The notes below the pieces were generated by a model. That model was not told the origin of the DNA, made no database searches, and saw only the letters and a program-made list of their open reading frames with translations. Shown here one piece after another: positions 29,385-63,862 of a stretch of DNA of 63,862 bases; the first letter of the stretch is position 1; every line of letters starts with the position of its first letter. The stretch is taken from the NCBI GenBank assembly GCA_004299555.1, contig SCQU01000016.1, forward strand, positions 1 through 63,862, in the 5' to 3' direction. The position numbers were made by a program, and so were the translations under genes. Source of the stretch: Rhodanobacteraceae bacterium (GTDB taxonomy: Bacteria; Pseudomonadota; Gammaproteobacteria; Xanthomonadales; Rhodanobacteraceae).

Positions 29385-29483
29385 TCGCGGCGACCGTGAC
29401 CGCGCGTTTGCACGGCCGCTGCGTGCCACGATGGCCCAGCCGCACGGCCGCTCGGCCGCGCGCACGGCCGGTACAATCGTGGG

Positions 29484-31793
29484 ATGGATGTGTCGCATTT
29501 GCTGGATTCGCTGAACGCCGCCCAACGTGAAGCGGTTGCCGCACCGCCCGGCCACTATCTGGTGCTGGCAGGCGCGGGCTCGGGCAAGACGCGGGTGTTG
29601 ACGCGCCGCATCGGCTGGCTGATCGAGGCCGAAGGCGCGGCCCCGTGGTCGATCCTCGCCGTCACCTTCACCAACAAGGCCGCGGGCGAGATGCGCGGGC
29701 GCCTGTCCAACCTGCTGCCGCAAGGCGCGCGCGGGCTCACGATGGGCACCTTCCACGGCATCGCGCACCGCCTGCTGCGCCAGCACTGGCGCGAGGCGCA
29801 GCTGCCGGAAACCTTCCAGATCCTCGACGCGGACGACCAGCAGCGGCTGGTCAAGCGCGTCATCGCCGGACTTGGCCTCGACGAGTCCAAGTTTCCCCCG
29901 CGGCAGGCCTGCTGGCAGATCAACGCGTGGAAGGACGAAGGCCGGCGCCCGGACGGCATCGAGCCCGACGAACACTCGGTCGCGCGCACCTTCCGCAACA
30001 TCTACGAGGCCTACGAACAGGCCTGCCGCCGCGCGGGGCTGGTGGATTTTGCCGAACTGCTGCTGCGTGCGCACGAACTCATGCGCGACAACGACGCGCT
30101 GCGTGCGCACTACCAGGAACGCTGGCGATACCTGTTGATCGACGAATTCCAGGACACCAACGCCCTGCAGTACGCGTGGATCCGGCTCCTGGCCGGCAGC
30201 ACCGGCAAGGTGTTTGCGGTCGGCGACGACGACCAGTCCATCTATGGCTGGCGCGGCGCGAAGGTCGAAAACATGCGCGCATTCCTGCGCGATTTCCCGG
30301 CCGCAAAGACCCTGCGGCTGGAGCAAAACTACCGTTCGACCGCCACCATCCTCGAGGCGGCCAACGCCGTGATCGCCCGGAACCCCTCGCGCCTGGGCAA
30401 GAAACTGTGGACCGCGGGCGACCAGGGTGAAGCCATCGCACTGTACGCCGCCTACAACGAACAGGACGAAGCGCGTTTCGTCGTCGAGCGCATCCGCGAG
30501 TACATCGACGGCGGTGGCAACGCGGCGGACGCGGCGGTGCTGTACCGCTCCAACGCCCAATCGCGCAACTTCGAAGAGCAGCTGCACCAGAAGAGCATTC
30601 CGTACCGCGTCTACGGCGGCCAGCGCTACTTCGAACGGGCCGAGGTCAAGGACGCGCTGGCCTACCTGCGCCTGGCAACCAACCGCGGTGATGACGCGGC
30701 CTTCGAACGCGCGCTGGCGACGCCCCCGCACGGCGTCGGCGAACGCAGCATCGAAACCCTGCGCCGCCGTGCGCGGAACGAGGACACGCCGCTGTGGAAT
30801 GCCGCGCTGGCGGAACTGTCGGGCGGCACGTTGAACACCCGCGCCAGGAATGCGCTGAAGGCGTTCATGGCGTTGATCGATGAACTGGCACGTGCCTGTG
30901 CGGGATCCCCGAGTGAACCCTTCTCCCTGCCGGAGAAGGGCAAGGGTCCGGGTCCGCTCCCGAACGCAGCCCCGAACGCAGCCGAACCTTCTCCCCCAGC
31001 ACCTCCCCCGGAGGGCGAAGGGGACCGTCCGGCGCTGACCCTGGCCGAGCAGGTCGAACACGCCGTCGTGCAGTCGGGCCTGCGCGACTACTACGAACGC
31101 GACAGCCGCGGCAACGCCGAAGCCCGGGTCGAGAACCTCGATGAACTGATCAACATCGCCAGCCGCTTCGAACGCGCGCCCGAGGACATCGAAGCCGGCC
31201 TGTCCGAACTCGCGGCGTTCCTCGCCCATGCCGCGCTCGAAGCCGGCGAAGGCCAGGGTGATGCCGGTGCCGACTGCGTGCAGCTGATGACCCTGCATTC
31301 GGCCAAGGGCCTCGAATTTCCGCTGGTGTTCCTGGTCGGGCTGGAGGACGGGCTATTCCCGACCCAGCGCTCGGTCGACGACCCCGCCCGCCTCGAGGAA
31401 GAGCGCCGGCTTGCCTACGTGGGCATCACCCGCGCCCGCGAACGCCTGGTGCTGTGCTACGCGGAATCGCGCCGCCAGTACGGCAGCGAAACCCTGCAGC
31501 GGCCATCGCGCTTTCTTGAAGAGTTGCCGGCCAGGCTCATCACCGAGGTGCGCCCGCGGGCGCGCATCTCGCGTCCGGTGTACGCCCCCACGCCGCGCCC
31601 GGCACGCGGCCATGCCGATCTGGACGAGGACCGGCCGGTCAAACTCGGCCAGCGCGTGCGCCACGCGAGCTTTGGCGAAGGGGTGGTCGTCAGCGCCGAG
31701 GGCTCCGGTTCGCACACCCGTATCCAGGTGAATTTTGCCGACGTCGGGCCAAAATGGCTGGTGGCGGCGTACGCGAATCTGACGGCGCTGTAG
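29484..31793 (+). CDS. uvrD: DNA helicase II (UvrD) with an in-frame repeat insertion
   Basis: A 769-aa SF1 helicase for nucleotide-excision and mismatch repair. It has Walker A AGAGSGKTRVLTRR, motif II LLIDEFQDTNALQY, motif III VGDDDQSIYGWRGAK, motif IV LEQNYRSTATIL, motif V MTLHSAKGLEFPLVFLVGLE, motif VI RLAYVGITRARERL and a C-terminal Tudor-like tail (VRHASFGEGVVVSAEG). Residues about 474-517 (PSEPFSLPEKGKGPGPLPNA and PSPPAPPPEGEG) are low-complexity, come from a GC-rich repeat and lie in the 2B region; the frame is kept. UvrD rather than Rep is favoured by the C-terminus. Confidence 0.94.
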   Translation: MDVSHLLDSLNAAQREAVAAPPGHYLVLAGAGSGKTRVLTRRIGWLIEAEGAAPWSILAVTFTNKAAGEMRGRLSNLLPQGARGLTMGTFHGIAHRLLRQHWREAQLPETFQILDADDQQRLVKRVIAGLGLDESKFPPRQACWQINAWKDEGRRPDGIEPDEHSVARTFRNIYEAYEQACRRAGLVDFAELLLRAHELMRDNDALRAHYQERWRYLLIDEFQDTNALQYAWIRLLAGSTGKVFAVGDDDQSIYGWRGAKVENMRAFLRDFPAAKTLRLEQNYRSTATILEAANAVIARNPSRLGKKLWTAGDQGEAIALYAAYNEQDEARFVVERIREYIDGGGNAADAAVLYRSNAQSRNFEEQLHQKSIPYRVYGGQRYFERAEVKDALAYLRLATNRGDDAAFERALATPPHGVGERSIETLRRRARNEDTPLWNAALAELSGGTLNTRARNALKAFMALIDELARACAGSPSEPFSLPEKGKGPGPLPNAAPNAAEPSPPAPPPEGEGDRPALTLAEQVEHAVVQSGLRDYYERDSRGNAEARVENLDELINIASRFERAPEDIEAGLSELAAFLAHAALEAGEGQGDAGADCVQLMTLHSAKGLEFPLVFLVGLEDGLFPTQRSVDDPARLEEERRLAYVGITRARERLVLCYAESRRQYGSETLQRPSRFLEELPARLITEVRPRARISRPVYAPTPRPARGHADLDEDRPVKLGQRVRHASFGEGVVVSAEGSGSHTRIQVNFADVGPKWLVAAYANLTAL
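30905..31034. repeat. GC-rich palindromic repeat inside uvrD
   Basis: CCCTTCTCCCTGCCGGAGAAGGG forms a hairpin and is followed by CCTTCTCCCCCAGCACCTCC and GGAGGGCGAAGGGG. The repeat is translated in frame as a Pro/Gly-rich segment absent from usual UvrD. It belongs to the same family as the elements in soeA and upstream of lipB. Confidence 0.75.
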
Positions 31794-31844
31794 TCGAGGA
31801 CAACATCACCGGAGCGTAACGCGGCCCCAGCCTCGAGCGAGGCC

Positions 31845-31992
31845 ATGGATGGCCGTCATCGAAGCGACCTTCCGCGCCCTTGCACGACCGTTTCGGCAAC
31901 ACGATATTGCCGAAACGGTCGTGCCGGGCGCGATGGCTTTGGCTACTTTCGCCGAAACGAAAGTAGCCCCCTCGGCGGCAGCCGAGCGGAAC
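31845..31992. repeat. Composite dispersed repeat, copy A
   Basis: It contains a perfect 14-bp inverted repeat GACCGTTTCGGCAA/TTGCCGAAACGGTC (31886-31920), the linker GTGCCGGGCGCGATGGCTTT, and a second hairpin GGCTACTTTC/GAAAGTAGCC (31941-31968). Copies occur at 39113 and 52445. It lies in the convergent gap between uvrD and the patatin gene and may end transcription from both sides. Confidence 0.8.
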
Positions 31993-32028
31993 CGCCTTTG
32001 GCGTGGCGGGCGGAAAAATACCGGGACG

Positions 32029-32949
32029 TCACGCGCGCGTGCGCGGCTCCCACGCCGCCAGCGCACGCCCGGCGCGCATGCGCCCAAGCTCGATCAACTC
32101 CGCTGCGCGATAAAACTCATACACCGCGCTGGCGTTCCGCGGCACCTCGATCACGAGATCGGGCCGGTCGGCCGCGAGGCGGAACCCGGCGAGGTTTTGC
32201 TGCATCAGGTCCAGCGACTGGGTCAGCGTGTCCATCCAGCCCGGTTCGCGCGTGGACGCTTCGTGGCCGCCAATCGTGCGCTTGACGTAAGCGGCGATCT
32301 TGCCGCGCAGCCCGTTGCGTGGCTTGGCCGGCGCCGGTTCGGGCAACGCCGGCAGCGCCTCGGGGGGCCCATTGACGCTGACGGCGATCGTATAGTCGCT
32401 GGCCGACCGCAACAGCGGCGTCAGCGGCAGCGGGTTCATCAGGCCGCCATCGACCAGGCGGTGGCCGCGCACGAGGCGCGGCCGAAAGATGGTGGGAATG
32501 GCAATCGACGCGCGGATCGCATCAAACAATGGGCCGCGGGTCAGCCACACCTCGCGCTCGCGGTCGAGATCGGTGGCGACCGCGGTGAACGGGATCGGCA
32601 ACGCTTCAATGTCGACGGCACCGATCAGCTCGCGCAGTACGTCGATGATGCGCTCGCCCTTGATGAGCCCGGCGCCGGAGAGCGTCCAGTCAACCAGTTT
32701 CAGTACGTCCATCTTCTGCAGCGCGCACACCCAGTCGCGGTAGACATCGAGTTTGCCGGCGGCGTAGATGCCGCCGATCAGGGCCCCCATCGAACTGCCG
32801 GAAACCGCGACGATGCGGTACCCGGCGGCTTCGATGGCTTCGATGGCGCCGATGTGCGCCAGCCCGCGCGCGCCGCCGGTGCCCAGGGCCAGCGCGACGG
32901 TCGGTTTCGGGGATGCGGCGGCCACCGCCGGGACGCGGGCATCGCTCAC
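32029..32949 (-). CDS. Patatin-like phospholipase (RssA type)
   Basis: A 306-aa patatin-fold serine hydrolase with the oxyanion-hole loop LGTGGARGLAHIGAIEAI, nucleophile Ser in VSGSSMGALIGG and the catalytic Asp in LVDGGLMNPLPL. It lacks a signal peptide, so it acts in the cytoplasm, probably on phospholipids or lysophospholipids. Its start overlaps the stop of the WYL regulator (ATGA), so the two are co-transcribed. Confidence 0.9.
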   Translation of the reverse strand: MSDARVPAVAAASPKPTVALALGTGGARGLAHIGAIEAIEAAGYRIVAVSGSSMGALIGGIYAAGKLDVYRDWVCALQKMDVLKLVDWTLSGAGLIKGERIIDVLRELIGAVDIEALPIPFTAVATDLDREREVWLTRGPLFDAIRASIAIPTIFRPRLVRGHRLVDGGLMNPLPLTPLLRSASDYTIAVSVNGPPEALPALPEPAPAKPRNGLRGKIAAYVKRTIGGHEASTREPGWMDTLTQSLDLMQQNLAGFRLAADRPDLVIEVPRNASAVYEFYRAAELIELGRMRAGRALAAWEPRTRA

Positions 32950-49821: not shown

Positions 49822-51036
49822 ATGTCCAGACGCGTTGTCATCACCGGCGTCGGTGCGATCTGCGCGCTCGGCCACGACGCACGCACGCTGTGGAACGGCA
49901 TGCGCGAAGGCCAGAGCGCGATCGCGCCGCTGGCCGGGTTTGAAGATCAAGCCATGCGGGTCAAGGTCGCGGCGCAGGTGCGCGACTACGACCCCGCGCA
50001 ATACTTCGACGCCAAAAAACGGCCGCTGCTGGATCGCGTCTCGCAGTTCGCGCTGATCGCCGCGCGCGAAGCGGTCGCGCAATCCGGGTTGACATTCGAT
50101 CCGCAGCTGGCCACGCGCACGGCGTGCGTCATCGGTACCGGAGTGGGCGGGGAAGTTGCGCATGATGATGCCTCCAAGCGTCTTTACGCCGAGGGCAATC
50201 CGCGCCTGCACCCGCTGACCGTGGTGCGGATCATGCCCAGCGCACCGGCTTCGCACGTCTCGATCGAATTTGGCATCACCGGCCCGACCTTTGGCATCAC
50301 CAGCGCCTGCGCCACCTCCAACCATGCCTTCGCGCAAGCCTTGGCGCTGGTGCGTTCGGGCATGGCCGATGCGGCGCTCGCGGGTGGCACCGAGGCTTGC
50401 ATCACGCTCGGCACCCTGCGGGCGTGGGAAGCCATGCGCATCCTCGCCGACGACACCTGCCGCCCATTCTGCAGGCAGCGGCGCGGGCTGGTGCTGGGCG
50501 AAGGCGCCGGCGTCGTGGTGCTGGAAGAGCTTGAGCACGCGCGTGCGCGCGGAGCCGAAATTCTCGCGGAGCTGGCGGGCGCCGGCATGAGCGCGGATGC
50601 GGGCGACATCGTGATGCCATCCCCGACCGGTGCCGCCAGCGCGATCAGCGCAGCGCTCAAGGATGCACACCTCAATCCCGGCGAGGTCGACTACATCAAC
50701 GCCCACGGTACCGCGACACCGGCGAACGATCCGACCGAAACCAAGGCCATCCACCTGGCACTCGGCGACGCCGCGCGCACGGTCGCGGTTTCGTCCACCA
50801 AGGCGGTCCACGGCCACGCGCTCGGCGCAGCGGGCGCACTCGAAATCGTCGCCGCCCTCGGCGCGCTGCGCGAAGGCGTGATCCCACCCACCGCGAACTT
50901 CCTCGACCCCGACCCCGAATGCGATCTTGACTACGTGCCGAACGTCGCACGCGAAACACCAGTGCGCGCCGTACTGTCCAACGCCTTCGCATTCGGCGGG
51001 TTGAACGCGGTGGTCGCGCTGACACGCGCACCCTGA
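49822..51036 (+). CDS. Beta-ketoacyl-ACP synthase (FabF-like)
   Basis: A 404-aa condensing enzyme with the Cys-His-His triad: Cys163 in GITSACATSNHAFAQAL, His295 in INAHGTATPANDPTE and His332 in KAVHGHALGAAGALE. It elongates acyl chains on an ACP. The dedicated ACP next door and the two half-transporters suggest a secondary lipid or polyketide-like pathway rather than bulk fatty acid synthesis. The gene ends 12 bp before the tandem array. Confidence 0.88.
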   Translation: MSRRVVITGVGAICALGHDARTLWNGMREGQSAIAPLAGFEDQAMRVKVAAQVRDYDPAQYFDAKKRPLLDRVSQFALIAAREAVAQSGLTFDPQLATRTACVIGTGVGGEVAHDDASKRLYAEGNPRLHPLTVVRIMPSAPASHVSIEFGITGPTFGITSACATSNHAFAQALALVRSGMADAALAGGTEACITLGTLRAWEAMRILADDTCRPFCRQRRGLVLGEGAGVVVLEELEHARARGAEILAELAGAGMSADAGDIVMPSPTGAASAISAALKDAHLNPGEVDYINAHGTATPANDPTETKAIHLALGDAARTVAVSSTKAVHGHALGAAGALEIVAALGALREGVIPPTANFLDPDPECDLDYVPNVARETPVRAVLSNAFAFGGLNAVVALTRAP

Positions 51037-51048
51037 GGACCGCCCACG

Positions 51049-51888
51049 CCCTTCCAACGGAAGGGATCGCAGCACCGCTGCGCCCGGCATCGGCCACCCC
51101 TTCCAGCGAAAGGGATCGCAGCACCGCTGCGCGCGGTATCGTCCACCCCCTTCCAGCGAAAGGGATCGCAGCACCGCTGCGCGCGGCATTGTCCACCCCC
51201 TTCCGGCGGAAGGGATCGCAGCACCGGTGCGCCCGGCATCGGCCACCCCTTCCAGCGAAAGGGATCGCAGCGCCGCTGCGCGCGGCATTGTCCACCCCCT
51301 TCCAGCGAACGGGATCGCAGCACCGGTGCGCCCGGCATCGGCCACCCCTTCCAGCGAACGGGATCGCAGCACCGGTGCGCGCGGCATCGGCCACCCCTTC
51401 CAGCGAAAGGGATCACAGCGCCGGTGCGCGTGGCATCGTCCACCCCCTTCCAGCGAAAGGGATCGCAGCACCGGTGCGCCCGGCATCAGCCACCCCTTCC
51501 AGCGAACGGGATCACAGCGCCGCTGCGCGCGGTATCGTCCACCCCCTTCCGGCGGAAGGGATCACAGCGCCGGTGCGCGCGGTATCGGCCACCCCCTTCC
51601 AGCGAAAGGGATCGCAGCACCGCTGCGCGCGGCATCGGCCACCCCTTCCAGCGAACGGGATCGCAGCACCGCTGCGCGCGGTATCGCCCACCCCCTTCCA
51701 GCGAAAGGGATCGCAGCGCCGGTGCGCGCGGTATCGTCCACCCCCTTCCAGCGAAAGGGATCGCAGCGCCGCTGCGCGCGGTATCGGCCACCCCCTTCCG
51801 GCGGAGGGGATCACAGCACCGCTGCGCGCGGTATCGTCCACCCCCTTCCGGCGGAAGGGGGTCGCGACGCAGTCGCGGGGGGATGACG
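51049..51888. repeat. 17-unit tandem array of a two-hairpin palindromic repeat (49-50 bp)
   Basis: Units begin CCCTTCC at 51049, 51098, 51148, 51198, 51247, 51297, 51346, 51395, 51445, 51494, 51544, 51594, 51643, 51693, 51743, 51793 and 51843. Each holds CCCTTCCAGCGAAAGGG, a hairpin, then GATCGCAGCACCGCTGCG, a second hairpin, and a linker like GCGGTATCGTCCACC. Variable bases toggle between a few states (AGCGAA/GGCGGA; ACCGC/ACCGG/GCCGC). The last unit ends GTCGCGACGCAGTCGCGGG like the solitary element. No unique spacers exist. Confidence 0.95.
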
Positions 51889-52605
51889 TCTCAGTCCTGG
51901 CTCCGCGCGCTATCGCGATCCGGTTGCTCAAACGCACGATTCCGTCCGCTGCGCGGGCGACCTACTTTTGTTTCGGCAAAAGTGGTCAAAGCGAGGACGC
52001 ACGCACCACGATCACGCCGGCATCGTGTCGGCGTGACCACCCTGTGCCTCTCCTGGCCCGTGGGCCGCCACGAACTACTCGCCACGTCCCTGTGGCTCGC
52101 CCCCCGCTTGCGCCCGGGGCCGCCTGCGGCGTTCAAATCGGCAATCCCCGCCGATTTAGTCGGCCATCCATGGCCTCGAGCATTCGCGCCTTGCTTCCGC
52201 GTGCCGCCGCGATGCCCGGCGCCGTGCGAAGGCGCCAAATCCGCTTCGATGGCCGGCCTCCATGGCCTGCGATGTAGCAAATTGCGGTATGCAAGCCATG
52301 GATGGCCGTCAGCGGAGCAGGGCTGCTGGCGCGCCCTTGCATGACGCCGCGGCGCGCAGCCGAACGGCGGAGCAGGCACCGGATGTCCGAGCACAGGGAG
52401 GTGCGAGTTCGGCGCGGCCGCCGTGCGGCGAGCACCAAGGGTAGTTTCGGCAACGCGACGTTGCCGAAACCGTCATGCCAGGCGCAGTGGCTTTGGCTAC
52501 TTTCCCCGAAAGGAAAGTAGCTCGTCCGCGCAGTGGGCGAAACCGCCTTTCAAAAGCAGGTCAGCCGCGCAGCGGGCGAAACCGCCATTCCAAAGCAGGT
52601 CAGCC
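51889..52605. repeat. Repeat-rich intergenic block with composite repeat copy C
   Basis: No gene is seen. It contains a partial copy of the composite repeat (about 51938-51990, TTTGTTTCGGCAAAAGTGG) and CCATGGATGGCCGTCAGCGG (52299), also found at 31840. Copy C lies at 52445-52522 (TTTCGGCAAC/GTTGCCGAAA and GGCTACTTTC/GGAAAGTAGC). Two direct 39-bp repeats (52527-52565, 52566-52604) begin CGCGCAGYGGGCGAAACCGC. Confidence 0.8.
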
Positions 52606-53679: not shown

Positions 53680-54303
53680 TCAGGGGCGGACGTAGCGGAT
53701 GTAGGGCTTGACCTTTCGCACCTTGCCGAACTTCCTGGCGACTTCCTCATCGGACAGCTTGGGCGAAGCCACGACCTCATCGCCTGGCCGCCAGTCGACC
53801 GGCGTTGAAACCGGGTTCTGGTCGGTCACCTGCAGCGCGTCGATGGTGCGCAGGATTTCATCGACGTTGCGGCCCACCGACGGCGGGTAGATCAGCGCCG
53901 TGCGCACCTTGCGCTTGGGGTCGATGATGAACACCGCACGCACCGTCACCGTCGGATCGGCCTCGGGGTGGAACATGCCGTACAACTTGGCCACTTCGAG
54001 ATCCGGGTCGGCCACGATCGGGTAATTGAGCTCGGTGCCGCCGACATCGGAGATGTCCTTGGCCCACCTGTGGTGGCTTTCCACCGGATCCACCGACAAG
54101 CCCAGCAGCTTGGCGCCCCGCTGGTCAAACTCGGCCTTGCGGTGGGCGAAGGCACCCAGCTCGGTGGTGCAGATGGGCGTGAAATCCTTCGGATGCGAGA
54201 AGAACACGACCCAGTGGTCGCGCGCGTACGCGCTGAAGTGCAGCGGGCCCTGGGTGGAATCGCGGGTGAAGTCAGGGGCGGTTTGGCCCAATTGCACACT
54301 CAT
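53680..54303 (-). CDS. 1-Cys peroxiredoxin (Prx6 type)
   Basis: A 207-aa thiol peroxidase with peroxidatic Cys in HPKDFTPICTTELGAFAHRK, WVVFFSHP and the C-terminal extension typical of Prx6 (VDWRPGDEVVASPKLSDEEV). No resolving Cys is evident. It detoxifies H2O2 or lipid peroxides in the cytoplasm. It lies 10 bp upstream of cysK in the same direction. Confidence 0.92.
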   Translation of the reverse strand: MSVQLGQTAPDFTRDSTQGPLHFSAYARDHWVVFFSHPKDFTPICTTELGAFAHRKAEFDQRGAKLLGLSVDPVESHHRWAKDISDVGGTELNYPIVADPDLEVAKLYGMFHPEADPTVTVRAVFIIDPKRKVRTALIYPPSVGRNVDEILRTIDALQVTDQNPVSTPVDWRPGDEVVASPKLSDEEVARKFGKVRKVKPYIRYVRP

Positions 54304-54753
54304 GGTGATTGCCTCGCATAAAAGACGTTGGAAACCGGGACCGAGCCCGTCACGGCGCGTGGGTCATGCCGCACACCGGCCGGCCCGCGGTACGTGCGCG
54401 GCTCGGGCACAAGTTCACCGCTGCGTAAAAGCACTGACGCGCGCATGTCGAACCGCCGGTGGCCAAAACCGCAACAGCGTTTCGAAAAAAGCGGGGGCCG
54501 CGAATCCATGCAGCCAGTGTGGCCCACGCCACACGCTTGGGCAAATGCGCATCGCAAGCTACGTGATAACGCGCGGTTATAAGCAGTTATGGACGTTTGG
54601 ACGTCCATCTGCTAGCCTCCGGCAGGCTGGCAGGCGGTCGCCGCCGCAGCGGCCTTGAGGTTTCCTGCCGCATCCGCAGTCTCTGGCGAGCGGTGCCGGC
54701 CGCTGTCCATCAGGCACGCTTCGCCAGCCCACGGCCACTCCGGAAACTGCAGG
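54304..54753. promoter_or_regulatory. Divergent promoter region of the peroxiredoxin and CysB-like genes
   Basis: About 450 bp without a gene. A patch with ATAAC-5 bp-GTTAT (54566-54580) and another GTTAT (54586) contrasts with the GC-rich surroundings. Such TTAT/ATAA clusters resemble CysB-type binding regions, so it may serve autoregulation or control of prx-cysK. Confidence 0.45.
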
Positions 54754-55734
54754 ATGACGCTCAACCAGCTCCGCTACTTCGTCGCCATCACCGATGCGGG
54801 CCTCAACATTACGCTCGCGGCCGAACAGGTACACGCCACCCAGCCCGGCCTGTCGCGCCAGATCAAACGCCTGGAAGATGAATTGGGCTTTCTGCTGTTC
54901 GGCCGCAAGGGGCGCAGCCTCACCGCGCTGACCGCCGCGGGCGAGCAGGTACTGGTGCACTCGCGGCGGATGCTGGATGAAGCCGCCAACATTCACGCGC
55001 TGGCCGCCAATCAGCGCGGCGAGCGCCGCGGCCGCCTGACCATCATCACCACCCACACCCAGGCGCGCTACGTCCTGCCCACCGCGATTGCCGCAACCCG
55101 GCGCGAGTTTCCGGCGGTCAGCATCCGCCTGCAACCGTCCGCTGAAAGTGAAATCCTCGCGCGGCTCGCGCGCCGCGGCGACGAGCTTGCCATCATCAGC
55201 ACCAGCGGCGCGGTGCCCGGCGCCGGCATCGCGGTGCCGTTGTTCCGTTGGCGGCGCGTGGTGCTGGCGGGCAAGGATCACCCGCTTGGCCAGCGCCGCA
55301 AAGCGCCAACCTTGCGCGCACTGTCGGCGCTGCCGATCGTCAGTTACGAATCCTCGCGCCGGCCCGAGTCCTCGCTGCGGCGGGCGTTCGACGCCGCCGG
55401 CCTGCCACTGCAGCTGGCCATGACCGCGCACGACGCCGACCTCATCAAGACCTACGTCCGGGCGGGCCTCGGCATCGGCATCCTGGCCGAGATGGCGGTT
55501 GCACCGGAGGACACCGACCTGCAGGTGCTGCCAGCGCCCGCGGCGCTGCCGGAGTGCATCACCTGGGCGGTGCTGCCCCGCGGACGCGTGCTGCGCAATT
55601 TCACCCTGCGCCTGCTGGGCCTGCTGGCGCCGCAGATCGACCCGACCGACGTGCGCCGCGTCGTCGCCGGCAACGCCGAACCGGCGTGGCCCGCACCACC
55701 GGCGTGGCAAGAACTACGGCACGCGACCGCGTGA
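54754..55734 (+). CDS. cysB: CysB/Cbl-like LysR-family regulator
   Basis: A 326-aa LysR protein. The helix-turn-helix runs MTLNQLRYFVAITDAGLNIT and EQVHATQPGLSRQIKRLEDE. The sensor domain includes TTHTQARYVLPTAI, the conserved start of the CysB inducer site. CysB activates sulfate assimilation with acetylserine as signal; its place beside cysK supports this. The ATG at 54754 gives the standard N-terminus. Confidence 0.87.
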   Translation: MTLNQLRYFVAITDAGLNITLAAEQVHATQPGLSRQIKRLEDELGFLLFGRKGRSLTALTAAGEQVLVHSRRMLDEAANIHALAANQRGERRGRLTIITTHTQARYVLPTAIAATRREFPAVSIRLQPSAESEILARLARRGDELAIISTSGAVPGAGIAVPLFRWRRVVLAGKDHPLGQRRKAPTLRALSALPIVSYESSRRPESSLRRAFDAAGLPLQLAMTAHDADLIKTYVRAGLGIGILAEMAVAPEDTDLQVLPAPAALPECITWAVLPRGRVLRNFTLRLLGLLAPQIDPTDVRRVVAGNAEPAWPAPPAWQELRHATA

Positions 55735-55896: not shown

Positions 55897-56316
55897 TCAG
55901 CCCCCACCCCACTCCCACCGGTGACCGCAGTTTTGACAGATGAACGTACTGCGCTTGGCGGGAAATGCGGCCACCAACAGAACCACCAGAATTGCATAGA
56001 CGCGCTTGCGCAGTTGCATGGTGCGCTTGAAGTTGGTCGAGCCGCAACGCGGGCAGTGCTCGCGCTGCAATCCGGTCACTTCGTTCAGCTCGCCTTCGAG
56101 GATTCCCGCCTCGTAATCGGCAAGGATTTTCCGCGCCGGTCCGAGGAACTCGGCAGGTACCTGGACAAGCGTACCGCCGAGCGCCAACGACATGGGCCAA
56201 TTGACGATCGCGTGCTGCGCGAATGCAACGCTTGCCGGAATTCCGTCCGCCTCGAGACGGGCCCGTACAATGTAGGCCTCCCAGGGATCAAGAAACTTGG
56301 CTACCGTAGCGAGCAT
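55897..56316 (-). CDS. DUF2007 domain protein with zinc ribbon
   Basis: A 139-aa protein. FLDPWEAYIVRARLEADGIP is the DUF2007 (putative signal-transducing) start. HCPRCGSTNFKR and FICQNCGHRWEWGGG form a four-Cys zinc ribbon around one membrane helix (VYAILVVLLVAAFPA). Function unknown. The ATG at 56316 is used. It lies just outside the last attC and is probably not a cassette. Confidence 0.82.
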   Translation of the reverse strand: MLATVAKFLDPWEAYIVRARLEADGIPASVAFAQHAIVNWPMSLALGGTLVQVPAEFLGPARKILADYEAGILEGELNEVTGLQREHCPRCGSTNFKRTMQLRKRVYAILVVLLVAAFPAKRSTFICQNCGHRWEWGGG

Positions 56317-56446
56317 GACTCTTGTGAGGGTCAAAGCTGAAGTTGATCGGCCATCGCCATGCCCGGCAGAATACAGGCCCGTTGTCACACGCACAGGGTT
56401 CGCAACAGAAACGGTGCCATTGCGTTCTGCTTGAGCCTGCAAGGTC

Positions 56447-56536
56447 ATCCCACGCCCGGGTTCGACCGGCGGCCGCCTGCAGCGGGTGGCGATCGGCCGG
56501 AGTGGCCAGCAGGCACCGCCCGGCAAACCGTTATGC
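56447..56536 (-). other. attC site of the GNAT cassette (degenerate)
   Basis: The right end reads GTTATGC (R'' GCATAAC on the minus strand) and overlaps the GNAT stop codon. Inner arms CGACCGGCGG and CGCCCGGCAAACCG pair. The left core (ATCCCAC) departs from consensus and the site is longer than the others. It is probably the last attC of the array. Confidence 0.6.
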
Positions 56537-57058
56537 GCGTGGCCCGTCTGCCGCAGCGGAGGGTTCAGCGCCGAGCGACCTGACCCGAAGCGACACCATT
56601 TTGCCGCCGCCCGCCGCCTGTCGATCGACCTCCACGAATCCCCGCCGGTCGTGGAACGCCAGCGACACCCGGTTGGGTGGAACCACGTCCACCTCAGCCA
56701 CCAACCACGCCAACCCCGCCGCCCGGGCGTATTGCTCGGCCCGTTGGTAGAACCGGGTGCCGAGCCCGGCCCCGCGATACGAGGGGTCGAGCACCACCCG
56801 ATCAATGTACAGGAAGCGCTTGAGCCGGGCCGCGAACCACCGATAGTTCACGCTGTCGTACGCCCGCCCGTCGGTGAACGCCATCAAGAAACCGACCACC
56901 TGACCGGCCACTTCGGCGACCTGGAGCATGTCGGCCATCGCGGCCAGTGCCCGGAAGCGGGCGCCATCCATCGAACTGAGCACCGCCACGGACTCGGCGT
57001 TCAGCCGCAGCACGGCTGCGGCATCCGCTTCCGTGTACTCCCGCAGCATCACTTCCAT
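56531..57058 (-). CDS. GNAT-family acetyltransferase (cassette)
   Basis: A 175-aa GNAT enzyme: REYTEADAAAVLRLNAESVA start, YIDRVVLDPSYRGAGLGTRF (acetyl-CoA pyrophosphate loop) and LAFHDRRGFVEVDRQAAGGG. Substrate unknown; cassette GNATs sometimes inactivate drugs. The ATG at 57058 has GGAG ten bases upstream. The stop codon sits inside attC. Confidence 0.88.
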   Translation of the reverse strand: MEVMLREYTEADAAAVLRLNAESVAVLSSMDGARFRALAAMADMLQVAEVAGQVVGFLMAFTDGRAYDSVNYRWFAARLKRFLYIDRVVLDPSYRGAGLGTRFYQRAEQYARAAGLAWLVAEVDVVPPNRVSLAFHDRRGFVEVDRQAAGGGKMVSLRVRSLGAEPSAAADGPRA

Positions 57059-57075
57059 CCGCAACCCACTCCTTC

Positions 57076-57148
57076 GCCAGACCTCCGGGGCGCCCGGCGC
57101 AACCGCAGCGGAGCAGCGGGCTTGCGTTCGGTTGACCGAGAGGTGAGC
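57076..57148 (-). other. attC site of the BrnTA cassette
   Basis: CCCGGCGCAACCGCAGCGGA and TTGCGTTCGGTTGACCGAGA give the paired arms. The outer boxes GCCAGAC and GGTGAGC are each one or two bases off consensus. It aligns base for base with the site at 60439. Confidence 0.75.
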
Positions 57149-57202
57149 GCACGCACAGGTGCGCCTTGCAGCCCGAGATTAGTGCATACACGATCATTAC
57201 GC

Positions 57203-57475
57203 ATGGACCATGACCCTTCGAAGCGCCGCAAGAACCTGCGCAAGTGCGGCATCGGCGTGCCCGATGGCATGGAAGCGCTGGATGGCCCGATGCCCACCCG
57301 CGAGGATGGCCGGGAAGGCTACGGCGCACAGCAATTGGCGAGCCTGGGCTGGGCGCATGGCCGTGTGGTTGCGCCCGTGCGGACCGACCGTGAGGACGGG
57401 CCCCGACTGATTTCGTGCCGCGAGGCAGGACCCTATGAACGTGAAGCGCACTACCAAGCGTACCCCCGAATCTGA
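57203..57475 (+). CDS. brnT: BrnT-like ribonuclease toxin
   Basis: A 90-aa protein with the BrnT pattern: MDHDPSKRRKNLRKCGIGVP, the DGREGYGAQQLASLGWAHGR segment (family R-x-x-x-LG) and GPRLISCREAGPYEREAHYQ (family R-x-IS-x-R-x-A-x-x-x-E-x-x-x-Y). BrnT is a RelE-fold RNase toxin neutralised by BrnA. It overlaps brnA by 41 bp. It is in the opposite direction to the attC sites, so it must carry its own promoter; the Arg/Glu/His set needs checking for activity. Confidence 0.75.
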   Translation: MDHDPSKRRKNLRKCGIGVPDGMEALDGPMPTREDGREGYGAQQLASLGWAHGRVVAPVRTDREDGPRLISCREAGPYEREAHYQAYPRI

Positions 57476-57719
57476 CGTGCCGTACGACCCCAGGAACAAA
57501 GCGGCGACGCTGAAGTACTGGAAAAGCGCGACTGCACACGGCGGTGTGGCGCAACTGCACGCAAAGCGCGGACGACCAGCCAAGCCACCGGAAGAGCGCA
57601 AGGAACAAATTGCGTTGCGCGTGGATAAAGACGTGCTGGAGTGGTACCGCGAGCAAGGCACCGGCTGGCAGACACGCATGAACGCAGTGTTGAAGGCATT
57701 CCGTGACGCGGTGAGCTGA
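57435..57719 (+). CDS. brnA: BrnA-like antitoxin
   Basis: A 94-aa protein whose C-terminus (KEQIALRVDKDVLEWYREQG then TGWQTRMNAVLKAF) is the ribbon-helix-helix BrnA signature. The middle RGRPAKPPEERK is the usual linker. BrnA wraps the toxin and represses the operon. Its start lies inside brnT. Confidence 0.87.
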   Translation: MNVKRTTKRTPESDVPYDPRNKAATLKYWKSATAHGGVAQLHAKRGRPAKPPEERKEQIALRVDKDVLEWYREQGTGWQTRMNAVLKAFRDAVS

Positions 57720-57726
57720 CTGCGCG

Positions 57727-57795
57727 GCTCACGCCTGCGCTAACCAGCGCGAGCCCGCGTAGCGGGTCAGCGTTGGATTGAGCGAGCGGTTGGAC
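57727..57795 (-). other. attC site of the membrane-protein cassette
   Basis: GCTAACCAGCGCGAGCCCGC and GTAGCGGGTCAGCGTTGG form the stem. The right box GTTGGAC (57789) is good and the left box GCTCAC lacks one base. The stop codon of the preceding gene (57767) is inside the site. Confidence 0.8.
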
Positions 57796-58243
57796 CTGAG
57801 TTGCGCTGCCATAACGAAAGAACGAAACCTATGAATGTCACCGCCAACAGCCCGTAAATGAACCAAGTTCCGCCGGAGGCACCCGGCTTAGCAATGGGCA
57901 GTGCATAGTGGACGACCCGCCATACGATTTGCTCGACTAACAGCAGCAGGAAAACAAACGGTACCAAAGCGCGATACTGCACCAGCGCGACGATGCCAAA
58001 CGCCACAATGGTGAGTTGCGAGACACCCCACATTGCGTAGAACCTGAGGATGACCAGCGCCGCACCGGACGTATAAGAGCCAAGTGGCAGCCCGTCAGCT
58101 TTGGTAGCCACATAATGACCATTGAAGATCGAGTTTGCACCCATCGCAGCAAGCAGCAACAACACAACAGCCAAGATCCATAACCCGGACCTGTGGCCTC
58201 CGAAGTCATTGTCCGCTTGCCGTGGCAGAAGGCTGCTAAGCAT
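57767..58243 (-). CDS. Four-helix membrane protein (cassette)
   Basis: A 158-aa protein with helices LWILAVVLLLLAAMGANSIF, the region ALVILRFYAMWGVSQLTIVA, LVPFVFLLLLVEQIVWRVVH and TWFIYGLLAVTFIGFVLSLW. The ATG at 58243 follows GAGGGGG by six bases. No family recognised. Its end overlaps attC, typical of cassettes. Confidence 0.75.
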   Translation of the reverse strand: MLSSLLPRQADNDFGGHRSGLWILAVVLLLLAAMGANSIFNGHYVATKADGLPLGSYTSGAALVILRFYAMWGVSQLTIVAFGIVALVQYRALVPFVFLLLLVEQIVWRVVHYALPIAKPGASGGTWFIYGLLAVTFIGFVLSLWQRNSGPTARSIQR

Positions 58244-58282
58244 TGATACCCCCTCGAAGGATGCGGATGCCTGTCTGGAAAG

Positions 58283-58354
58283 GTCTAATGCCCGAGGTAC
58301 CGGCTGCAAAGACCCCGTAGTGGAACGTGCATCCGGTTGACCGGCTTGTTGGAC
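58283..58354 (-). other. attC site of the SnoaL cassette
   Basis: GAGGTACCGGCTGCAAAG and GTGCATCCGGTTGACCGG arms, right box GTTGGAC (58348). The left box GTCTAAT has T where the cleaved core needs C (A instead of G on the minus strand), which may block recombination there. Confidence 0.82.
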
Positions 58355-58364
58355 CGCGCCGGAA

Positions 58365-58784
58365 TCATGCCTTTGGTGGCGGAACCACGCCCAATTGCAT
58401 CATCAGTCCAAGCGTGTCCATGATGATGCGCGTGTCTTTAATCTTGGTGCCCTCGAAGCGATCAATCACCATGCCCCACACCCTCACAGGTGTGTCCGTG
58501 GCCGGCACGCCAAGAAACGTCCCCCGCTGCGTGCCCGTCCACTCGAAGCGTGACAGCACCTTGTCGCCTTCGGCAACCTGCTCTTGGACGGTCCAATGCA
58601 TGTCGGGGAATGCCGTCCTCAGCCCGCGCAGTGCGTTCTTCAACCCGTCCAGGCCCGGCCCTTGGCCGGGCAGTGGGACTTGCTCCACCATGTCGTCCCA
58701 GAAGAACTGACCGGCCGCATCGATCCGTCCTTGGTTCAGAACTTCTTCGATAAACCGACGAACGGTGTTGCTGTTATTTTGCAT
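58365..58784 (-). CDS. SnoaL-like (NTF2-fold) protein (cassette)
   Basis: A 139-aa SnoaL/ester-cyclase-like protein: NTVRRFIEEVLNQGRIDAAG, LKNALRGLRTAFPDMHWTVQ, DKVLSRFEWTGTQRGTFLGV and MVIDRFEGTKIKDTRIIMDT are typical of this fold. Enzyme activity unknown. The ATG at 58784 follows AGGGA by nine bases. Confidence 0.87.
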   Translation of the reverse strand: MQNNSNTVRRFIEEVLNQGRIDAAGQFFWDDMVEQVPLPGQGPGLDGLKNALRGLRTAFPDMHWTVQEQVAEGDKVLSRFEWTGTQRGTFLGVPATDTPVRVWGMVIDRFEGTKIKDTRIIMDTLGLMMQLGVVPPPKA

Positions 58785-58826
58785 GTTCTTCGTCCCTACT
58801 TGGACCGTGTATGGATGCCTTTGACC

Positions 58827-58868
58827 ACCCAACGCTTGACCTACGCGGCGCAACCCGCGCAGCGGGCG
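58827..58868 (-). other. Half attC cut by the IS3 element
   Basis: ACCCAACGCTTGACCTACGC and GGCGCAACCCGCGCAGCGGG match the left half of the complete sites. The right half is missing beyond the IS inverted repeat at 58869, so the site is dead. Confidence 0.75.
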
Positions 58869-58907
58869 TGAACCGCCCCGGGAATCCCGGAGGCTGTTTG
58901 GTGTGAG

Positions 58908-60124
<1,217 letters not shown>

Positions 60125-60174
60125 GCTCCAATCCTCTCAAAGGTTGGAGCCTCCGGGAAAGCCGGGGCGGTTCA

Positions 60175-60438
60175 CTGAAAGCGCAACGGCCCACACGGGC
60201 CTGCCCACAGCACATTGCCACGATTGCACCACCCCTACACCGCAGCCTGACGCGCGGCGGAAACAGCGTGCCAGCGCGTTGAACCTGCCAACACCGGTGC
60301 ATTACATAGCCGAGCCCGCGGCCGCCGCGCCGACACTACCCAGCAGGCCCAACCTGATGTCCGCCGGAGCCACCCAAAAAGGAAACCGTGTGATGCGACA
60401 GTGGTGGTGCTGGGAGATTGCACGGAAAAATTACTGGC
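60175..60438. other. Remnant of a truncated cassette
   Basis: About 260 bp between the IS3 end and the next attC. A plus-strand frame (VHYIAEPAAAAPTLPSRPNL; MRQWWCWEIARKNYW) runs into attC, but no start or family is recognisable. It is probably what is left of a cassette whose other part was lost with the IS insertion. Confidence 0.4.
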
Positions 60439-60510
60439 GCCCAACGCCCGAGGTAACCGGCGCAAAGGCCGCGTAGCGGGATTTGCGTCCGGTTGACCGA
60501 GTTGTTAGCC
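60439..60510 (-). other. attC site of the toxin-antitoxin cassette
   Basis: The best-formed site: GCCCAAC (60439) and GTTAGCC (60504) outer boxes, AGGTAACCGGCGCAAAGG and TTTGCGTCCGGTTGACCGAG arms, and a CCGCGTAGCGG tip. The toxin stop codon lies inside the box. Confidence 0.88.
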
Positions 60511-60825
60511 CTTTGCTCGACTTGCACGCGACGCGAGCCGCTCCCGACGCAGCAGCCGCTCCGACCGCATAACGTAAAGAATAAAGACTTTGTGTCCGTC
60601 GTAGCGATAGAACACGCGACATGGCGGTTCGACAATCTGGCGGTACCGCGACCGGCCCAGCTCTTGCGGCCTGCTACCACTCTCCGGATGGTTGGCCAAC
60701 TGCACGACGTGACCGAAGATGCGCTGGATGAGCGCCGATGCAGCGACAGGATTCTCGAGTGCAATGTAGTCCGCGATAGCATCCAGATCCCCCAGGGCCG
60801 GCTCTGACCAAATTATTTCAGCCAT
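60505..60825 (-). CDS. ParE/RelE-family toxin (cassette)
   Basis: A 106-aa RelE/ParE-fold toxin: AEIIWSEPALGDLDAIADYI, NHPESGSRPQELGRSRYRQI and PPCRVFYRYDGHKVFILYVM are family hallmarks. By fold it is either a gyrase inhibitor or an RNase. It overlaps its antitoxin by 13 bp. Toxin-antitoxin cassettes commonly stabilise integron arrays. Confidence 0.9.
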   Translation of the reverse strand: MAEIIWSEPALGDLDAIADYIALENPVAASALIQRIFGHVVQLANHPESGSRPQELGRSRYRQIVEPPCRVFYRYDGHKVFILYVMRSERLLRRERLASRASRAKG

Positions 60826-61070
60826 CTGGCAAGGCGCTTCTTGGCTTGAGCATGGGAAGCTACACGGCCTTCAGCAACAGCCTGCTCCCCCCGGGCAATG
60901 CCTTCGAGGATCGACATGCGCTGCTCCATGAGCTCATAGGTCTCGACATCCAGCAGGTAAGCACTGGGAAGGCCATGCTGCGTGATGAGAATTGGCTCCT
61001 TGTCGCGCTCGATGTCCGACAGGAGTTCGGTGGCTTGCCGTTTGAGGGTAGTAACGAGTTCGGTACGCAT
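60813..61070 (-). CDS. Phd/YefM-family antitoxin (cassette)
   Basis: An 85-aa antitoxin: TTLKRQATELLSDIERDKEP, ILITQHGLPSAYLLDVETYE and a charged C-terminus that would bind the toxin. It would also bind the operator at 61071-61094. The pair is in the array direction. Confidence 0.9.
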   Translation of the reverse strand: MRTELVTTLKRQATELLSDIERDKEPILITQHGLPSAYLLDVETYELMEQRMSILEGIARGEQAVAEGRVASHAQAKKRLARWLK

Positions 61071-61094
61071 GAAGTGACACTACAGTATCACTTC
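61071..61094. promoter_or_regulatory. Operator palindrome upstream of the antitoxin
   Basis: GAAGTGA-10 bp-TCACTTC touches the antitoxin start codon. This is the usual place for autorepression by a Phd-type antitoxin. The IS110 element begins 29 bp further right. Confidence 0.7.
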
Positions 61095-61148
61095 CAGTTA
61101 CGCAAGCGCTTCCCACAAAGGGCTAGACAGAATGGCTCTTGTTGGAGC

Positions 61149-61261
61149 GGCCTGCCGCCGCGCGTACCGTGGGTTGCGCGCGGATAGCGCGCCGAGCCAC
61201 ATCGTTCGATCCACATCGTTGACGGTGTGGACGGCAACGAGTCATTTCGCGGAGGCAGGCC
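61149..61261 (+). ncRNA. Candidate bridge RNA leader of IS110 copy 1
   Basis: GGCCTGCCGCCGCG (61149) pairs with CGCGGAGGCAGGCC (61248-61261) at 13 of 14 positions and closes directly onto the transposase ATG. Between them are further stems (GTTGCGCGCGGATAGCGCGC). IS110 elements encode their guide (bridge) RNA in the non-coding left end, so this is the natural candidate. Confidence 0.5.
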
Positions 61262-62371
61262 ATGAAGCAATGTATCACCAAGCATGTGGGGTTGGACGTC
61301 CACAAGGAATCGATCGAGATCGCGACGGCGGACGTCCGGGGTGGCGAGGTTCATCACGTAGGGCGCATCGGTGGGGACCTGCCGGCACTGGATGCGGCGT
61401 TGGCGCGGCTGCACTGCCCGGTCACAAGTCTGCAGGTGGTGTACGAAGCGGGCCCCTGCGGGTATGCGATCCATCGGCACCTGGTGGCGCACGGGATCGC
61501 GTGTGCAGTGGTGGCGCCATCGTTGACGCCCAAGCGGTCGGGTGAACGGATCAAGACCGATCGGCGCGACGCGCTCAAGCTGGCGCGTTTGTCGCGGGCC
61601 GGTAAGCTGCGCGCCATCCGAGTACCGGACGCCGAGGACGAAGCCATCCGCGACCTGTTGCGCGCCCGCGAGGACACGGTCAGGGTGCAACGCAATGCCC
61701 GGCACCGACTCAAAGCCCTGTTGCTGCGACAGGACGTGCGCTATGCCGGCAAGACCGCGTGGACGCCGGCCCACGAACGTTGGCTGGCGCGCGTGCACCT
61801 GCCCACCCCGGCCCGGCAGATCGTATTCCAGGAATATGTCGACAGCGTGCACCAGGCGACCCAGCGGATCACGCGCCTCGATCGTGTGATCGGCGATCTG
61901 CTGCCCGGCTGGTCGCGCTATCCGCTGGTCAAGGAACTGCAGGCGCTGCGCGGGGTGCAACAACTGCATGCCGCCGTGCTGGTGGCCGAGATCGGCCCTA
62001 TCGAACGCTTCGAATCACCGCGCCAATTGATGGGCTTCCTCGGACTGACCCCGAGCGAATCCTCCAGCAGCAGCCGGCGCCGCCAGGGCGCCATCACCAA
62101 GACCGGCAACGCCTTCGCCCGACGCGCCCTGGTCGAAGCCGCCTGGCAATATCGCTTGCCGGCCCGCATCGGCACCACCATCGCCCGACGCCAGGGTGGA
62201 TGTTCCGAGCCGGCGCGCGCGATCGCCTGGAAAGCCCAGCTGAGACTGTGCGCACGCTTCCGCAGCTTGCGGGCCCGCCGCATGCTCTCGACCAAAGCGG
62301 TGGTCGCCATCGCGCGCGAACTGTCCGGCTTCGTGTGGGCCATCGCCTGCCAGCAAGCAACGAACCGCTGA
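61262..62371 (+). CDS. IS110-family transposase
   Basis: A 369-aa DEDD recombinase. The RuvC-like domain has VGLDVHKESIEIA (Asp), VYEAGPCGYAIHR (Glu) and IKTDRRDALKLARLSRAG (two Asp). The C-terminal Tnp domain has the nucleophilic-Ser region FLGLTPSESSSSSRRRQGAI and KTGNAFARRALVEAAWQY. Full length and probably active. Confidence 0.94.
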   Translation: MKQCITKHVGLDVHKESIEIATADVRGGEVHHVGRIGGDLPALDAALARLHCPVTSLQVVYEAGPCGYAIHRHLVAHGIACAVVAPSLTPKRSGERIKTDRRDALKLARLSRAGKLRAIRVPDAEDEAIRDLLRAREDTVRVQRNARHRLKALLLRQDVRYAGKTAWTPAHERWLARVHLPTPARQIVFQEYVDSVHQATQRITRLDRVIGDLLPGWSRYPLVKELQALRGVQQLHAAVLVAEIGPIERFESPRQLMGFLGLTPSESSSSSRRRQGAITKTGNAFARRALVEAAWQYRLPARIGTTIARRQGGCSEPARAIAWKAQLRLCARFRSLRARRMLSTKAVVAIARELSGFVWAIACQQATNR

Positions 62372-62638
62372 ACCCCAACATCGACCCGATCGGCAACGCG
62401 GTGCAGGTCACGGTGGAGAACCCTCGACGGCGTTACGAAAGCAGCCCATCGCCACCTTCGACTCTAGACTGAGGCAGCTCCGCGACGAACACAGCAAGGC
62501 GCTACCCAACGCGCGAATATCAGCAGGATCAACCGTCGCAACCAACGACCTGCGCCGCGTTGCTTATCGGGTCACCATACAAAACCCATCGTGCCGGCGC
62601 GCGAAGGATGCATTCGCCCGCTTGACAGTTTCGAGCCA

Positions 62639-62709
62639 TATCAACGCTTGAGGTAACCGGCGCGAGCCCCGCGTAGCGGGTGAGCGTCCGGTTGACCGAA
62701 TAGTTAGGC
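62639..62709 (-). other. attC site of the lipoprotein cassette
   Basis: TATCAAC (62639) and GTTAGGC (62703) outer boxes, GAGGTAACCGGCGCGAGCCC and GTGAGCGTCCGGTTGACCGA arms and the CCGCGTAGCGG tip. The lipoprotein stop lies 8 bp to the right. Confidence 0.88.
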
Positions 62710-62716
62710 TTGCTCT

Positions 62717-63130
62717 TTATGGAGTAACGGCACTAACTGTTTTGTTGAAGTCGAGAGCAGCATCCCATTGGTTCGGTACACAACCGAAAAGATTGTCGCA
62801 CGACACCGAGACAAGAATTTTATATTTGCCACCACCGATCGGCTCCTTGGTTACCTGCACAGCAATATCCGGGCTACCACCGACAGAATTGTAAGTACTA
62901 AGCAAGACGTCGGTTACGGTTTGGAGCTTGTAGCCAGCGTTGTGAACTATCCAAAGTTGCGCGGCGTCCCACTTTGCCTTGCAATCTGCATCGCTAACAC
63001 ATACAGGAGTTGTGCGTGCAAGCTCTGCTTGCTTCGCCTGCGTTTCGGCGGTTGGCGCAATGGCGCACCCCGACACAAGGACGGCGAACAGAATACTTGT
63101 GGAAAAAGCAACGCATTGAGCACGAGTCAT
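62717..63130 (-). CDS. Lipoprotein of unknown function (cassette)
   Basis: A 137-aa lipoprotein: signal peptide with lipobox LVSGC (Cys22), then a domain with pairs of Cys (VCVSDADC; SCDNLFGCVPNQW) that may form disulfides. No family recognised. GGGGGAAAG precedes the ATG. It is the right-most cassette seen. Confidence 0.78.
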   Translation of the reverse strand: MTRAQCVAFSTSILFAVLVSGCAIAPTAETQAKQAELARTTPVCVSDADCKAKWDAAQLWIVHNAGYKLQTVTDVLLSTYNSVGGSPDIAVQVTKEPIGGGKYKILVSVSCDNLFGCVPNQWDAALDFNKTVSAVTP

Positions 63131-63191
63131 AACTTTCCCCCTTTGTGAGTGAGCGGTTGAAGCCTAGACAGTATGACTTTCGCTGTGGCGG

Positions 63192-63294
63192 GCGCTGACC
63201 TCCGCGGGGCCATAGACGCGGGTTAGCGTGATGCCAGAGCCGCAGGAGCGAGCAAGCACTACGCTCATTTCGGTTTCCCAGCGGAGGTCAGCGC
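63192..63294 (+). ncRNA. Candidate bridge RNA leader of IS110 copy 2
   Basis: GCGCTGACCTCCGC (63192-63205) and GCGGAGGTCAGCGC (63281-63294) are perfect 14-bp inverted repeats closing a 75-nt interior, with the transposase ATG one base after. The layout equals copy 1 although the sequences differ. Confidence 0.55.
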
Positions 63295-63295
63295 A

Positions 63296-63743
63296 ATGAA
63301 CGATAGCACCGTCTATGTAGGACTGGACACGCACAAGGACTCGAACGTCGCCGCGTACTCGATCGGGCTCGGCGCGGTGCAGAGCCTGGGCAATGTCGGG
63401 GTGCGCGAACGCGATCTCGATCGCTTGTGCACGCGCTTGCACAGCAAGGGTTCGCGAGTGTGTTTTGTGTACGAAGCCGGACCCTGCGGCTACGGTCTGT
63501 ACCGGTACCTGACCGGCAAGGGGTTTGCGCGCATGGTGTGCGCACCCTCCTTGATCGCACGCAAGCCGGGGGATCGGGTCAAGACCGACCGGCGCGATGC
63601 CATCATGCTGGTCAAGGCGTTGCGCATGGGCGACCTGACCGCCGTGCACGTGCCGGATGTTGTGGACGAAGCCATGCGTGATCTGGTGCGCGCGTGGGGC
63701 GTCGCCAAGCAGGACCTCAAGCAGGCCCGGCAACGCCTCAAGT
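63296..63743 (+). CDS. IS110-family transposase, truncated by IS66 insertion
   Basis: The first 149 residues hold the RuvC-like motifs YVGLDTHKDSN (Asp), VYEAGPCGYGLYR (Glu) and VKTDRRDAIMLVKALRMG (two Asp). The frame is then broken at 63744 by foreign DNA. It is inactive as it stands unless the rest is beyond the IS66 and is supplied after excision. Confidence 0.9.
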
Positions 63744-63862
63744 GTAAGCGTCAGCCGATGGCATCTTGCGACGCGTTGGCCTGGTGCGCTACGCGATGGG
63801 CAGCAGGGTGTCGATGTCGCGAGCTTGGGTGGTCGGCAGCCGCGTCAGCACGTCGGTGAGCC
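63744..63862 (-). mobile_element. IS66-family element, one end
   Basis: The junction starts GTAAGCGTCAGCCGATGGCA; GTAAGCG is the typical IS66 terminal repeat. A transposase end lies 45 bp inside. The other end is off the window. Confidence 0.82.
63789..63862 (-). CDS. IS66 transposase (TnpC), C-terminal fragment
   Basis: The visible codons read LTDVLTRLPTTQARDIDTLL followed by PIA and stop. This is the characteristic C-terminal tail of IS66 TnpC (LxDVLxRLPxxxxxxIDxLLP). The N-terminus is outside the window. Confidence 0.82.
   Translation of the reverse strand, partial: LTDVLTRLPTTQARDIDTLLPIA

Follow-up and report, generated by a model that had tools for sequence, protein, structure and literature searches.

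A probable decaying stretch of sedentary chromosomal integron in a Rhodanobacteraceae bacterium, with IS110-family elements at its cassette junctions

Contig SCQU01000016.1 of a Rhodanobacteraceae bacterium (GenBank assembly GCA_004299555.1) carries near its right end a row of genes separated by short sites resembling attC, at which integron integrases (IntI) recombine cassettes, and this locus raises the question of whether the array belongs to an integron and whether that integron still works. The window analyzed here is the entire 63,862-nucleotide contig (C12), which belongs to a genome (G000) of 29 contigs and 2.98 Mb that is 98% complete, and we compared it with 15 sister genomes. Very probably, the array is a decaying section of the sedentary chromosomal integron that its genus carries: the sole intI gene found in this genome is broken, several of the sites have lost their crossover triplet, and insertion sequences (ISs) occupy junctions between cassettes.

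To locate attC sites, we built a covariance model (R1) from the minus-strand alignment of the five best window sites and ran it on this genome and the 15 sisters. In the window, R1 recovered five strong minus-strand sites, with scores of 69.9-92.5 bits and E values from 1.6e-17 to 1.4e-23: attC A (57074..57150, 69.9 bits), B (57724..57796, 80.3 bits), C (58281..58355, 77.5 bits), E (60437..60511, 92.5 bits), which is the best preserved, and F (62637..62710, 86.5 bits), whose outer box is interrupted by an IS and whose attC part begins at 62643. These scores are not independent, since the model was built from the same sites, and it is the sister arrays that supply independent evidence. Beside intact intI genes, R1 found 16 sites in G014, 6 in G006, and 4 in G001; those in G014 are consecutive (2629869-2638701), the first lying some 700 bases away from a complete intI (2628227-2629168). 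Seven of the 15 sisters possess a complete intI, while G008 has a broken one, and four of the seven (G001, G002, G006, and G014) have R1 sites close to intI on the same contig. Contig C1 of G014 also holds eight more R1 sites far from intI (e.g., at 1374170, 92754, and 752193), which are possibly clusters of attC sites lacking integron integrases (CALINs) or single-cassette insertions.

An earlier note on this DNA, made from the sequence alone, had described a minus-strand integron array with seven attC-like sites. The array and its strand are borne out, both by the five strong sites in one orientation and by the same site family beside intI in the sisters. Five of the seven sites hold, and the other two score at chance level: a possible degenerate attC (56445..56512, minus strand, placed at 56447 in the note; 10.5 bits, E 0.15 with filters off) and half attC D (58830..58867, minus strand, placed at 58827; repeat family D6; 9.2 bits, E 0.34 over 58832-58887). 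Both stand on the expected strand and in the expected place, yet they are outscored by a place inside an IS transposase gene (61762-61790, plus strand, 11.4 bits, E 0.084). Neither the repeat search nor R1 found the other half of attC D to the right of the IS3-type element that cuts it.

The sole intI found in this genome is broken, being both out of frame and cut by an insertion. A single match exceeds the TIGR02249 cut-off, covering residues 1-269 on contig C13, and residues 265-314 lie on C5, below that cut-off; eight weaker matches occur besides. Within the C13 part, residues ~82-118 do not align to the sister IntI in the C13 frame, and the matching peptide is found in another frame. The gene is cut at contig ends that carry an identical 120 bases, inverted, at C5:12553-12672 and C13:1-120, as if a palindromic or long-repeat insertion, the interior of which is unassembled, had broken it there. 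No complete intI adjoins the array in this genome, in which attI was not searched for, and R1 finds no site upstream of intI on C13, where a gene for a PepSY protein and a large efflux-pump-like gene (by eye) stand instead.

The surroundings of the two intI fragments and of the array match one integron locus in G006. There, a single contig carries a hydroxylase-like gene, a rhodanese gene, intI (minus strand), and six sites at 29479-32355 (plus strand), with LysR, AhpC, and CysK-like genes about 17.6 kb beyond the six sites (names by eye). In our genome, C5 holds the rhodanese gene (70% identical to that of G006), the C-terminal part of intI, and the hydroxylase-like gene (a DNA-level match), and C12 holds the LysR, AhpC, and CysK-like genes beyond the array, in the same relative orientation as in G006. 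The flanking pair, an AhpC-like peroxiredoxin (53680-54303, minus strand) and a LysR regulator (54655-55734, plus strand), both named from their sequence, has homologues that are 79% identical and in the same order beyond the G006 integron. Since the G006 gene order is matched by C5 and C12 together, the array occupies the intI-distal side of the ancestral integron locus; this placement rests on G006, the sole sister with both sides on one contig. The earlier note had also placed an integrase to the right of the window. The G006 synteny does put the integrase end once on the right side of the array, and an integrase there today is not shown: the contig ends at that point, its last 119-120 bases recurring at other contig ends, and the only strong intI match is the broken one on C13/C5. 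This contig break lies in a multi-copy element (63743..63862, unstranded), presumably IS66-like, 118-121 bases of which recur at the ends of C13, C7, C29, and C25.

The crossover boxes of the array differ from those of the sisters. All 24 sampled sister sites carry the box GTTA (14 of the 24 found in G014, 4 of the 16 in G001, and 6 of the 9 in G006), while the window boxes, from A to F, read GTCT, GTGA, ATTA, GTTG, GTTG, and, at F, GTT running into the IS end. The GTT triplet is thus lost in A and B, its G is changed in C, and it is kept in three of the six window sites versus 24 of the 24 sister sites (Fisher p 0.005). GTTG fits the usual GTTRRRY box, and judging by the boxes, half D, E, and perhaps F may still be working sites.

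Three ISs have entered the array, none of which the earlier note listed as such. An IS3-type element (58868..60175, minus strand), which we take to belong to the IS3 family, cuts attC D; it has two open reading frames, a frameshift pseudoknot at 59730-59846 (RF01497 ALIL, 111 bits), and 28-nucleotide inverted repeats (58868-58895 and 60148-60175) that are 89% complementary. The other two are IS110-family elements at cassette junctions with a common left end, TAGACAG.ATG. The first (61124..62642, plus strand) is an IS1111-type element with a DEDD transposase (61262-62371, NF033542 E 1e-69), a long noncoding region downstream, and ends, TAGACA and CATATC, common to its relatives. Its right end abuts attC F, that is, the insertion lies at the outer (crossover) box of the site. 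The second (63165..63733, plus strand; PF01548 E 1.4e-10) is placed at the 5' end of a cassette and is truncated at ~63733-63743, its right end missing. We considered the CTAGACAG shared at both left flanks as an attC remnant and dropped this, because the relatives show that the element itself begins with TAGACA. A 27-nucleotide inverted repeat (62383-62409 and 62547-62573, 89% complementary) also lies in the noncoding region of the IS1111-type element.

The first element (W1) is single copy in this genome and is present in 4 of 197 family genomes, this one included (E up to 1e-60). We fetched 67 relatives, the nearest of which are ~67% identical, and searched for right ends in W1 and 66 of the 67 relatives, leaving out the fragment L081. 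The end CATATC was placed in 45 of 67 elements, and the next bases are AACG, the attC core, in 14 of these 45 and AG in the other 31; L089 also has an AACG right flank and was missed by the right-end pattern. R1 scores an attC at the right junction in 4 of the 13 AACG relatives (L024, L026, L030, and L055; E 0.062 to 2.2e-5), with L151, the same element and flank as L024, not counted separately. Further R1 sites occur on the contigs of L026, L064, and L150, while the hits for L063 and L031 are weak and off-junction. The first element abuts an attC, and among its relatives a guide tracks the flanking target (see below); it is probably an attC-hunting element of an already published kind. On the transposase tree, AACG and AG flanks separate largely by branch, with 4 label changes versus 11.4 when shuffled. 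This tree has 44 rows (W1, the truncated second element, L150, and 41 relatives, after leaving out 9 interrupted frames, two duplicates, and short fragments); 10 of its 31 "other" rows, including L025 and L033, have no located right end, and the attC label of the second window element was assigned by its left end only.

Among the side results, the most unusual is the coupling of guide and target in these IS1111-type relatives, on contigs assigned to several phyla. We propose that RNA downstream of the transposase carries a target guide, at 62427..62437 (plus strand) in the window element. A guide was found in 42 of the 45 elements (not in L043, L046, or L052), leaving 40 after repeats were collapsed, and over these 40 it is complementary to the flanking target at a mean of 6.20 of 8 bases, versus 3.87 with shuffled targets. 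The AACG group (n=12) reaches 6.50 of 8 versus 5.25 shuffled, and the other 28 elements 6.07 versus 4.04; 0 of 10,000 shuffles came as high for the whole set or for either group. The pattern was tuned on the data, in that the guide anchor was refined after a first extraction in which W1, L030, L035, and others were mis-anchored (41 rows, 5.90 versus 3.84, 0 of 5,000 shuffles). Low scores occur in L042 and L047 (4 of 8) and in L056 and L086 (3 of 8). It is an even call whether attC hunting is the common trait of a large RNA-guided IS1111 group, in which the guide would hold the attC core and follow the variable neighboring bases, making these elements specialized parasites of integrons, whose junctions they would seal in many phyla (the contigs are assigned to Pseudomonadota, Rokubacteria, Myxococcota, Acidobacteriota, Krumholzibacteriota, and Verrucomicrobiota).

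One of the cassettes also shows divergence of its cargo. It encodes a BrnTA type II toxin-antitoxin (TA) system, with both profiles found in overlapping genes: the toxin BrnT (57203..57475, plus strand; PF04365 35.8 bits, barely above the cut-off of 34.5) and the antitoxin BrnA (57435..57719, plus strand; PF14384 E 5e-19). The cassette thus runs opposite to the array, and its close relatives near intI in G014 and G015 are inverted there too. BrnA is 89% (G014) and 88% (G015) identical to these relatives, while BrnT, a diverged copy, shares 68 of 90 residues with both and scores roughly half as many bits against the profile as the sister toxins do (76.7 and 73.6 bits). BrnT dN/dS, taken over its non-overlapping part, is 0.39 and 0.30 between window and sisters and 0.08 between the sisters; for BrnA the values are 0.11 and 0.10 versus 0.07. 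BrnT replacements are more numerous between the window and G014 than between G014 and G015 (p 0.018), and the direct comparison of BrnT with BrnA is borderline (p 0.059). The earlier note had suggested that two TA pairs in one short array stabilize it; this idea is weakened because BrnT has gained replacements and scores about half as high as in the sisters.

Several findings weigh against a decaying array. The GTT triplet is still present in D, E, and F; the model that detected the sister sites derives from the window, and decayed sister sites may escape it; and in three of the seven sisters with a complete intI (G004, G007, and G015) R1 places no site close to intI on its contig. Window BrnT is still above the Pfam cut-off, and the guide of the window IS1111-type element matches its own target at only 5 of 8 bases (AACGC). 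A second, intact intI could also lie in an assembly gap at one of the contig breaks. The array would then be part of a still-active chromosomal integron with its integrase in the gap to the right, as the ending of C12 in a multi-copy element, the complete intI in 7 of 15 sisters, and the triplets kept in D, E, and F would allow. We consider this very unlikely, as a genome of this completeness shows one above-cut-off intI match, which is broken and stands in a neighborhood shared with the sisters, and three sites are without the triplet. A CALIN brought in by transposition, and never part of an intI locus, would account for the ISs in the array and for array and intI not being joined in the assembly; it is a little easier to entertain and still improbable, given that in left flank and orientation the array agrees with the distal side of the G006 integron.

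The sites might also be ordinary dispersed intergenic repeats, similar to repetitive extragenic palindromes, since they are short, imperfectly palindromic, and intergenic. When the DNA of the plus (bottom) strand was folded, two of the five sites folded clearly better than shuffles (z -3.17 for E and -2.35 for F), while the remaining three did not (-1.64 for the site at 58283, with -0.77 and -0.69 no better than shuffles). On the other hand, the R1 search of this 2.98-Mb genome, in which 150 of 2784 first-look candidates were scored and very weak sites were possibly missed, returned, besides the five window sites (E 5e-21 to 6e-15), a single marginal place on C22 (E 0.07), and so the scattering across the genome that the earlier note had named as a possible refutation was not seen. 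Together with the rows of sites adjoining intI in sisters, this leaves almost no credence for such repeats, and a decaying chromosomal integron remains by far the best explanation.

Pfam confirms the other cassette identities proposed in the earlier note along with BrnT and BrnA. From left to right on the minus strand, these are a GNAT acetyltransferase (56531..57064; PF00583 E 5e-14), a SnoaL-like protein (58365..58853; PF07366 E 2e-32), a ParE-family toxin (60505..60825; PF05016 E 2.6e-18), and a Phd/YefM antitoxin (60813..61070; PF02604 E 3.5e-12). Two further minus-strand genes have no Pfam or NCBIfam match, and apart from these two proteins the kinds of cargo are already known. The orphan at 57767..58309 (start possibly 58246), membrane-protein-like by eye, has no relative in the other genomes among 197 family genomes, in plasmids, or in viral contigs. 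The protein at 62717..63130, lipoprotein-like by eye, has distant relatives in 5 other of the 197 family genomes and none among viral contigs; distant relatives also occur in 144 plasmid records, 126 of them from Acinetobacter. At the array boundary lies a gene for a zinc-ribbon-like protein (55897..56376, minus strand), with weak, sub-cut-off Pfam zinc-ribbon matches and relatives in 2 of 15 sister genomes. Further to the left, open frames of near-repeated peptide units at 50700-52300 suggest a tract of tandem-repeat DNA.

Taken together, we propose that IntI recombination at attC sites brought in the cassettes, arranged to be read from the minus strand, and that the integrase gene was later disrupted and became detached from the array. 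Crossover boxes at several sites would then have mutated while insertion elements moved in, and recombination would probably have been lost. To insert at the cassette junction, the intact IS1111-type element probably relies on an RNA guide able to pair with the conserved core of attC. With these changes, the cassettes are probably fixed in position. The locus lets one see what the death of a chromosomal integron might involve: breakage of the integrase gene, mutation of the boxes, faster divergence of a toxin than of its antitoxin, and occupation of junctions by RNA-guided elements. For comparison, the sisters offer integrons whose integrase genes are complete, and the IS relatives could serve directly as material for testing attC recognition by seek/bridge RNAs.

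This is an ordinary chromosomal integron in decay, holding cargo and insertion elements of known kinds, and it represents no new system. ISKpn4, ISPst6, and ISPa25 target one attC end and carry matching seekRNAs, shown or predicted, according to PMC11187229, and attC targeting by IS1111 elements is therefore already known; by description, the first window element resembles them in its DEDD transposase, its downstream noncoding region, and its insertion at one attC end. BrnT/BrnA are listed among the cargo of metagenomic integrons in PMC7370490, where the TA kinds are the same as here (BrnTA, ParE, and YefM-family), but in contrast to those BrnTA cassettes, ours carries a diverged BrnT and runs inverted, an orientation that the G014 and G015 copies share. 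PMC11023631 reports, for a Vibrio integron, cassettes encoding TA systems, an inactivated integrase, and recombination between ISs. In Xanthomonas, PMC12444791 describes intI inactivation and CALINs as widespread: its sedentary chromosomal integrons share with ours chromosomal arrays, repeated integrase inactivation, arrays without intI, and mostly unknown cargo, while the neighborhood there is ilvD and here rhodanese and LysR-AhpC.

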